Below, in pieces: positions 5,427-51,771 of a stretch of 64,000 nt of DNA. Source of the DNA: Candidatus Aenigmatarchaeota archaeon. GTDB lineage: Archaea > Aenigmatarchaeota > Aenigmatarchaeia > CG10238-14. Position numbers and translations under genes: made by a program. Within the stretch, counting starts at the first letter, position 1. Every line of letters starts with the position of its first letter. Below the pieces are notes generated by a model, which was not told the origin of the DNA, ran no database searches, and worked only from the letters and a program-made list of their open reading frames with translations. The stretch spans positions 1-64,000 of the forward strand of contig JAGVVZ010000001.1 of NCBI GenBank assembly GCA_018304545.1, written 5' to 3'.

Positions 5427-5511
5427 CGCCTTGGGGCGGACTCGAACCGCCGACCTTTTGGTCTCTGCTAAAATTAACAGCCAACTGCTCTACCTGCTGA
5501 GCTACCAAAGC
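5427..5511 (-). tRNA. tRNA-Asn (GTT) with a 12-nt intron
   Basis: Acceptor GCTTTGG/CCAAGGC, D-stem GCTC/GAGC, anticodon stem GTTGG/CCAAA (27-43 is G.A), T-stem GGCGG/CCGCC, discriminator G. The anticodon loop CTGTTA-A is interrupted between positions 37 and 38 by 12 nt (5463-5474). The anticodon GTT gives Asn. Confidence 0.92.
5463..5474 (-). other. 12-nt intron in tRNA-Asn, position 37/38
   Basis: Intron ATTTTAGCAGAG. Exon CTGT (32-35) pairs with intron GCAG (one G.U), leaving bulge TA|A at the 5' site and AG|A at the 3' site: a bulge-4 bp helix-bulge motif closed by a 5-nt loop. The layout is 1 nt bulge + 5 loop + 4 helix + 2 bulge. Confidence 0.82.
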
Positions 5512-33405: not shown

Positions 33406-33517
33406 AACAAAATTCTAAAAATAACAAATTTAAACTAATACTATAGAAGACAAACCAACATTTGATAGGATTATAAATTAATAATATATTAACTTTAGAA
33501 TATCAAAAATTATGCAT

Positions 33518-33607
33518 GGGTCCGTAGCTCAGCTTGGACAGAAGCAATGACTGTTATGCAGCTGCCTTCTAAGCAGAAGGTCGTGGGTTCAAATCCCATC
33601 GGGCCCA
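33518..33607 (+). tRNA. tRNA-Arg (TCT) with a 15-nt D-stem intron
   Basis: Acceptor GGGTCCG/CGGGCCC, anticodon loop CTTCTAA (anticodon TCT), T-arm GTGGG-TTCAAAT-CCCAT, discriminator A. The D-stem GCTC/GAGC is only complete if 15 nt (33543-33557) are removed between GA and GC. Stem position 27-43 is G.A, as in tRNA-Asn. Confidence 0.9.
33543..33557 (+). other. 15-nt noncanonical intron in the D-stem of tRNA-Arg(TCT)
   Basis: AGCAATGACTGTTAT lies between tRNA positions 23 and 24. Exon GACA (33537-33540) pairs with intron TGTT (52-55; one G.U), giving bulges GA|A and AT|G with both cuts two nt from the helix, as in a bulge-helix-bulge substrate. The layout is 1 + 8-nt loop + 4 + 2. Confidence 0.75.
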
Positions 33608-33666
33608 TATAAGTTCTTATTCGAGTCCAGCGATTATTTATACCCGAAGTCCCAGATTTGGACAGT

Positions 33667-51652: not shown

Positions 51653-51771
51653 GTCGGCGTAACTCAGCCTGGCTAGAGTGCGAGACTCATGGTCTATCTA
51701 TTGATCAATGAGTATTGATATAAAGATGATAAGAAATCTCGAAGTCCCGAGTTCAAATCTCGGCGTCGACA
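51653..51771 (+). tRNA. tRNA-Met or tRNA-Ile2 (CAT) with a 44-nt intron
   Basis: Acceptor GTCGGCG/CGTCGAC, D-stem ACTC/GAGT, anticodon stem CGAGA/TCTCG, T-arm CCGAG-TTCAAAT-CTCGG, discriminator A. Anticodon CAT. Intron between positions 37 and 38 (51692-51735). The G1-C72 pair and A-rich anticodon stem argue against the initiator; elongator Met and Ile(CAT) cannot be told apart here. Confidence 0.9.
51692..51735 (+). other. 44-nt intron in tRNA-Met/Ile(CAT), position 37/38
   Basis: Exon CTCA (32-35) pairs with intron TAAG (51730-51733) with one mismatch, giving bulges TG|G and AA|A. An inner helix of TC(T)ATCT with AGATGA supports it. The interior contains the self-complementary ATTGATCAAT. 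Confidence 0.75.

Follow-up and report, generated by a model that had tools for sequence, protein, structure and literature searches.

The tRNA-Arg(TCT) gene in the 64,000-nucleotide stretch of Aenigmatarchaeota DNA analysed here (the window) carries 15 additional nucleotides within the 3' strand of its D-stem, which raises the question of what the insertion is, which enzyme would remove it and how it arose. We consider it highly probable that it is a minimal noncanonical tRNA intron, cut by a lone alpha-type EndA, and one of at least nine such introns that were gained recently and repeatedly. The elements of the gene are as follows.

33518-33607, plus strand: tRNA-Arg(TCT) with one noncanonical intron (Rfam cmscan and cloverleaf parse)
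33527-33530, plus strand: GCTC, 5' strand of the D-stem, which would meet its partners G22 A23 (33541-33542) and G24 C25 (33558-33559) only after splicing
33537-33540, plus strand: GACA, 5' half of the central helix, D-loop positions 19, 20, 20a and 21
33543-33557, plus strand: 15-nt intron AGCAATGACTGTTAT in the 3' strand of the D-stem, between positions 23 and 24, in a unique register
33552-33555, plus strand: TGTT, 3' half of the central helix, within the intron, covarying with the GATA/TATT helix of tRNA-Arg(CCT)

The Rfam model RF00005 matched the gene with 49.2 bits (E = 1.7e-7), and ARAGORN placed the locus at 33517-33608 but misread it as Ile(TAT). The anticodon TCT lies at 33568-33570, and CCA is not encoded. 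Removal of the bracketed 15 nt from the arrangement GGGTCCGTAGCTCAGCTTGGACAGA[AGCAATGACTGTTAT]GCAGCTGCCTTCTAAGCAGAAGGTCGTGGGTTCAAATCCCATCGGGCCCA restores a perfect D-arm and cloverleaf, with every stem outside the insertion intact. The flanking residues, A23 (33542) and G24 (33558), permit no sliding, and none of the alternative removals tested gave as good a cloverleaf. The proposed interruption of the D-stem 3' strand is thus confirmed by a unique removal that yields a full cloverleaf. A group I intron or other embedded element was dropped as a candidate, the 15 nt being far too short.

The junctions form a bulge-helix-bulge (BHB) motif in one register only, with the central helix GACA/TGTT and the bulges GA-A and AT-G (hyphens mark the splice sites). 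The helix has four base pairs and the splice sites lie two bases 3' of each strand, as in BHB-type motifs; only 2.5% of shuffled introns formed a 4/4 helix in register. In the predicted fold of the unspliced RNA the helix pairs have probabilities of 0.67-0.83, compared with 0.001 for the D-stem, and precursor and mature forms have similar fold energies (-34.7 vs -33.4 kcal/mol). The GACA/TGTT motif of the original prediction therefore stands, both in its exact-register helix and in the precursor fold. It falls short of a strict hBHBh' motif: the outer helix has three pairs and the inner helix at most one G-C pair, while one pair of the central helix is G-U and an additional, fifth pair, G22-C33551, can reach into the bulge. 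As the inner helix amounts to a single G-C pair, the motif is relaxed (bulge-helix-loop) by the definitions of PMC6379350.

According to this arrangement, G19-A21 of the D-loop would pair with the intronic TGTT in the precursor, and the resulting helix would set the 5' splice site at GA-A and the 3' splice site at AT-G, two bases 3' of each strand. The single alpha-type EndA would cut both sites and RtcB would join the exons; the GCTC/GAGC D-stem could then form.

The same site had been claimed for an insertion in a second tRNA of the window.

58939-59024, plus strand: tRNA-Thr(GGT) (Rfam cmscan and cloverleaf parse), read by ARAGORN as Phe
58956-58959 and 58968-58971, plus strand: TGGT and GCCA, halves of the helix (register test)
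58962-58973, plus strand: 12-nt intron AAATAAGCCAAA at 22/23 (helix-register test)

This insertion can slide by one base, giving a 4/4 helix in the 22/23 register and 0/4 in the 23/24 register. Since only 22/23 provides a helix, the Thr and Arg sites are adjacent rather than identical; the two genes share one hot spot, at 22/23 and 23/24, respectively.

The genome that holds the window (0.96 Mb, 92% complete, 11 contigs) was surveyed from stretches around tRNA and EndA matches; a cloverleaf-plus-BHB script parsed 35 tRNA matches with E<=1e-3 and a further three obtained under a looser threshold. At least nine D-arm introns (13/14 to 25/26) were found among the approximately 38 tRNA genes, so that the Arg(TCT) insertion is not a solitary case, the outcome that the original prediction had named as speaking against it. 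In addition to those of tRNA-Arg(TCT) and tRNA-Thr(GGT), they comprise the following.

tRNA-Val(GAC): 22/23, helix GGTT/GACC
tRNA-Glu(CTC): 22/23, helix GTCA/TGAT (20/21 scores nearly as well)
tRNA-Arg(CCT): 23/24, helix GATA/TATT, with a canonical intron as well
tRNA-Asp(GTC): 24/25, helix CTAT/GTAG
tRNA-Gln(TTG): 25/26, helix AAGC/GCTT
tRNA-Gln(CTG): 15/16, helix GTGT/ACGC, found at the lower threshold
tRNA-Ile(GAT), L208 14-150 (G000 C6:153943-154079): 13/14, helix TAGC/GCTA, with further introns at 37/38 and 43/44

The three-intron tRNA-Ile(GAT) scores under the Rfam cut-off and was recovered at the lower threshold. Other noncanonical introns lie in Leu(TAA) at 30/31, Leu(TAG) at 29/30 and Ala(CGC) at about 40/41, and about a dozen tRNA genes in all carry noncanonical, often relaxed introns. 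In the first survey each of the seven D-arm introns showed a 4/4 helix in exact register, with a chance of 2-8% apiece; the product of these chances, about 9e-11, is an optimistic figure, since the helix guided the choice of some mature forms. Between the two Arg genes the helix changes in a compensated manner (GACA/TGTT to GATA/TATT, C20a-G to T20a-A), and the similarity of their intron sequences (shuffle p = 0.054) is only suggestive of a common origin. The predicted precursor folds of tRNA-Thr and tRNA-Arg(CCT) disfavour the helix (P below 0.1).

Canonical introns were also encountered, among them a 44-nt intron in tRNA-Met(CAT) (51653-51771, plus strand), which both ARAGORN and the fast Rfam scan of the window missed, and a 12-nt intron in tRNA-Asn(GTT) (5427-5511, minus strand), which ARAGORN called Ile(aat). 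Two different tRNA-Tyr(GTA) genes (L023 and L026) each contain a canonical intron of 41-43 nt. No tRNAs for Cys, His or Phe were recognised in the genome, even at a loose threshold; they may be absent from the assembly, split, or interrupted by several introns.

Two readings would deprive the insertion of its status as an intron, and we regard both as very improbable. A tRNA-Arg that functions unspliced with an enlarged D-arm would be compatible with the shortness of the insertion and the similar fold energies of precursor and mature forms, but the insertion splits the D-stem 3' strand, whose pairing nearly vanishes in the precursor, and the occurrence of helices in exact splice register in nine tRNAs of different isotypes, together with the covariation between the Arg genes, argues for removal. 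The gene might instead be a decaying pseudogene, its insertion a random indel or an assembly error, and an intact copy could sit in the missing part of a genome that is 92% complete and in 11 contigs. Against such decay, the rest of the tRNA keeps all its stems, this copy is the only Arg(TCT) gene recognised in the genome at this completeness, and errors would not yield the BHB register seven times in seven genes.

Introns at this part of the tRNA are known from other archaea. The intron positions listed in PMC4090602 include 20/21, 22/23 and 25/26, and a scan of named genomes outside the phylum found tRNA-Arg introns at 22/23 on the D-loop sequence GGAT in Woesearchaeota (L060, L076), a Thermoproteales genome (L066) and Micrarchaeota (L064), with GGAT/GTCC or GGAT/ATCT helices; read by eye, the gene of an unclassified archaeon (L077) has the same arrangement, with a 3' end that does not parse. 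Most other Woesearchaeota matches of this collection scan were anticodon-stem introns with an intact D-stem, most bacterial ones were N-runs or duplicated tRNA ends, and these were rejected. With 22/23 and 20/21 published and Arg 22/23 introns present in other phyla, the site is not lineage-specific, contrary to what had been suggested. The D-loop G18-G19-N-N offers a ready-made 5' helix half, which would explain the clustering of introns at 20-24, and the hot spot is likely a general consequence of this sequence followed by A-G. A search of an open-access library yielded only passing mentions of tRNA introns in Aenigmarchaeota.

Across 156 genomes of the phylum, a D-stem-insertion pattern gave only four matches (the window gene, G021, G014 and G131), a count that is no estimate of prevalence, as the pattern overlooks any tRNA that has a different D-stem or an additional intron. 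By eye, the G014 match is an anticodon-stem intron, and that of G131 resembles a 24/25 intron. For three genomes of the same family (G003, G006 and G011), long tRNA matches (>77 nt) were parsed, and these showed none of the seven D-arm introns detected first in the window genome. Their own noncanonical introns include the following.

G003: Gly(TCC) 21/22, Ala(CGC) 22/23, Thr(CGT) 30/31, Pro(CGG) 45/46, Gln(CTG) 53/54
G011: Gly(TCC) 21/22, Ile(TAT) 22/23, Glu(TTC) 20/21, Ile(GAT) 27/28
G006: Leu(CAA) 30/31, Gly(GCC) 29/30, and two D-loop cases read by eye

The same-family introns with 4/4 helices lie at 20/21, 21/22, 22/23, 27/28, 29/30, 30/31, 45/46 and 53/54. D-arm introns are commoner in the window genome (7/35 vs 7/113; Fisher p = 0.02, a post hoc comparison). 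Within G003, several introns (ACTTTTGGCCAAT, ACTTTTGGCCGAAG, ACTCTTTGGTCGAT and ACTTTCGGATGAA; L131, L133, L140 and L128) resemble one another in sequence and occupy 21/22, 37/38 and 30/31 in different tRNAs, which suggests intron transposition.

The original prediction had looked to a three-unit or heteromeric endonuclease. The genome instead encodes a sole EndA of the alpha type (about 180 aa), unaccompanied by a beta gene, and one RtcB. The EndA gene (L031 1258-1806) spans 182 aa from its first possible start and carries both Pfam domains (N and C), as opposed to the approximately 400 aa of a three-unit (epsilon2) fusion, and alignment with 1a79 reveals no insertion at the CSL or ASL site. 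From gene content, the enzyme would be a homotetramer (alpha4). Larger EndA forms of about 400 aa occur in families f2, f3 and f5 of the same order (246 aa in G012). Elsewhere among the Aenigmatarchaeota, G081, G082, G106, G113, G116-G118, G120 and G123 have an alpha-type EndA and a second, three-unit-like one of about 400 aa, which in G116 are found on one contig.

Two features set the enzyme of this lineage apart. Of the catalytic triad, Y110 and H126 are kept, while the Lys position is occupied by A157, and Ala, Thr or Ser stands at this position (Lys156 in M. jannaschii, Lys282 in ARMAN-2) in all alpha-type EndA of the phylum that were inspected. Moreover, these proteins carry the loop RGVKLKRGPK, or one close to it, between the catalytic Tyr110 and His126; it exceeds its M. 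jannaschii counterpart by six residues and equals that of N. equitans NEQ205 in length. In ARMAN-2 the corresponding Tyr-His stretch (loop I243-E248) may stand in the way of a larger specificity loop (PMC12397907), which places this stretch beside that loop. The literature describes alpha4 enzymes as cutting only canonical introns (PMC4033280) and as restricted to strict BHB motifs (PMC4033280, PMC4090602, PMC6379350), and only (alpha-beta)2 and epsilon2 enzymes as efficiently removing relaxed introns (PMC6379350). A tentative explanation, which we regard as a serious possibility, is that in the single-subunit EndA of Aenigmatarchaeota the Lys-rich Tyr-His loop replaces the lost lysine, permits a homo-oligomeric enzyme to cut relaxed introns in the manner of a CSL or ASL, and opened the D-arm to repeated gain. 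The missing Lys and the Lys-rich loop are real, lineage-specific features of the endonuclease, and they may bear on its specificity.

The enzyme and the history proposed here each face a competing account. An overlooked second endonuclease subunit, rather than the lone alpha enzyme, could process the D-arm introns, given that a divergent beta subunit may escape detection and that the genome is 92% complete. We find this rather unlikely: PF01974 has exactly one copy in each family genome with a match (10/12), and a beta-subunit model run over the order gave no gene above the cut-off, its matches being weak apart from the alpha or 400-aa gene itself. The introns might also be ancestral and lost elsewhere, and the Arg 22/23 introns of other archaeal phyla make loss possible in principle. 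Such a history is decidedly unlikely, however, since Arg(TCT) is uninterrupted in all six other same-family genomes where the pattern found the gene and in seven of the eight further genomes of the order in which it turned up, and Gln(TTG), Glu(TTC) and Asp(GTC), among other orthologues, carry introns at positions that differ between genomes. These frequent differences in position point to rapid turnover by repeated gain. Together with the noncanonical introns found elsewhere in the three relatives, the uninterrupted Arg(TCT) genes bear out the proposed repeated gain, and the comparison supports a recent, repeated acquisition of the D-arm introns in the window genome.

The Arg(TCT) intron itself is known in kind; what is new is the abundance of D-arm introns, often relaxed, beside a lone alpha EndA that lacks the catalytic lysine. 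Diverse tRNA introns have been tied in the literature to beta-subunit or CSL/ASL endonucleases, and the window genome departs from this pattern. The rule of intron and endonuclease co-evolution can be tested here with one small protein and minimal natural substrates. If the proposal for the loop is true, broad specificity would have been reached convergently by one more route, and the strict-motif rule for alpha4 enzymes would have an exception. The paired Arg introns, absent from relatives, would offer a recent snapshot of intron gain, and on the practical side standard tRNA finders mis-call such intron-bearing genes.

The introns resemble the noncanonical introns of Crenarchaeota and Nanoarchaeota (20/21, 22/23, 25/26; PMC4090602) in position range, short length, 4-bp in-register helices, relaxed motifs and the presence of several introns per tRNA. 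Here, in contrast, the host family belongs to the Aenigmatarchaeota and has a lone alpha-type EndA as its only endonuclease, and the two Arg introns lie at 23/24, a position outside the open-ended list of that review. As in the alpha4 EndA of Methanocaldococcus jannaschii (PDB 1a79), the enzyme is encoded by one short two-domain gene with Tyr and His and no CSL/ASL insertion; unlike it, the protein has about six extra Lys-rich residues between Tyr and His and Ala, Thr or Ser at the K156 position, and it serves a genome rich in relaxed, noncanonical introns. The broad-specificity (alpha-beta)2 enzyme of Nanoarchaeum equitans (NEQ205, PDB 3iey) has a Lys-rich Tyr-His loop of equal length (DIGVIPKKGKRSEREH vs ERGVKLKRGPKAPHEH), but retains the catalytic Lys and acts together with a beta subunit, for which no gene was found in the window genome. 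The ARMAN-2 epsilon2 EndA with its ASL and the crenarchaeal (alpha-beta)2 enzymes with their CSL (PMC12397907, PMC6379350) likewise combine a Lys-bearing loop near the active site with diverse introns, whereas in the single-unit enzyme described here the loop lies between Tyr and His rather than near residue 161 or 44.
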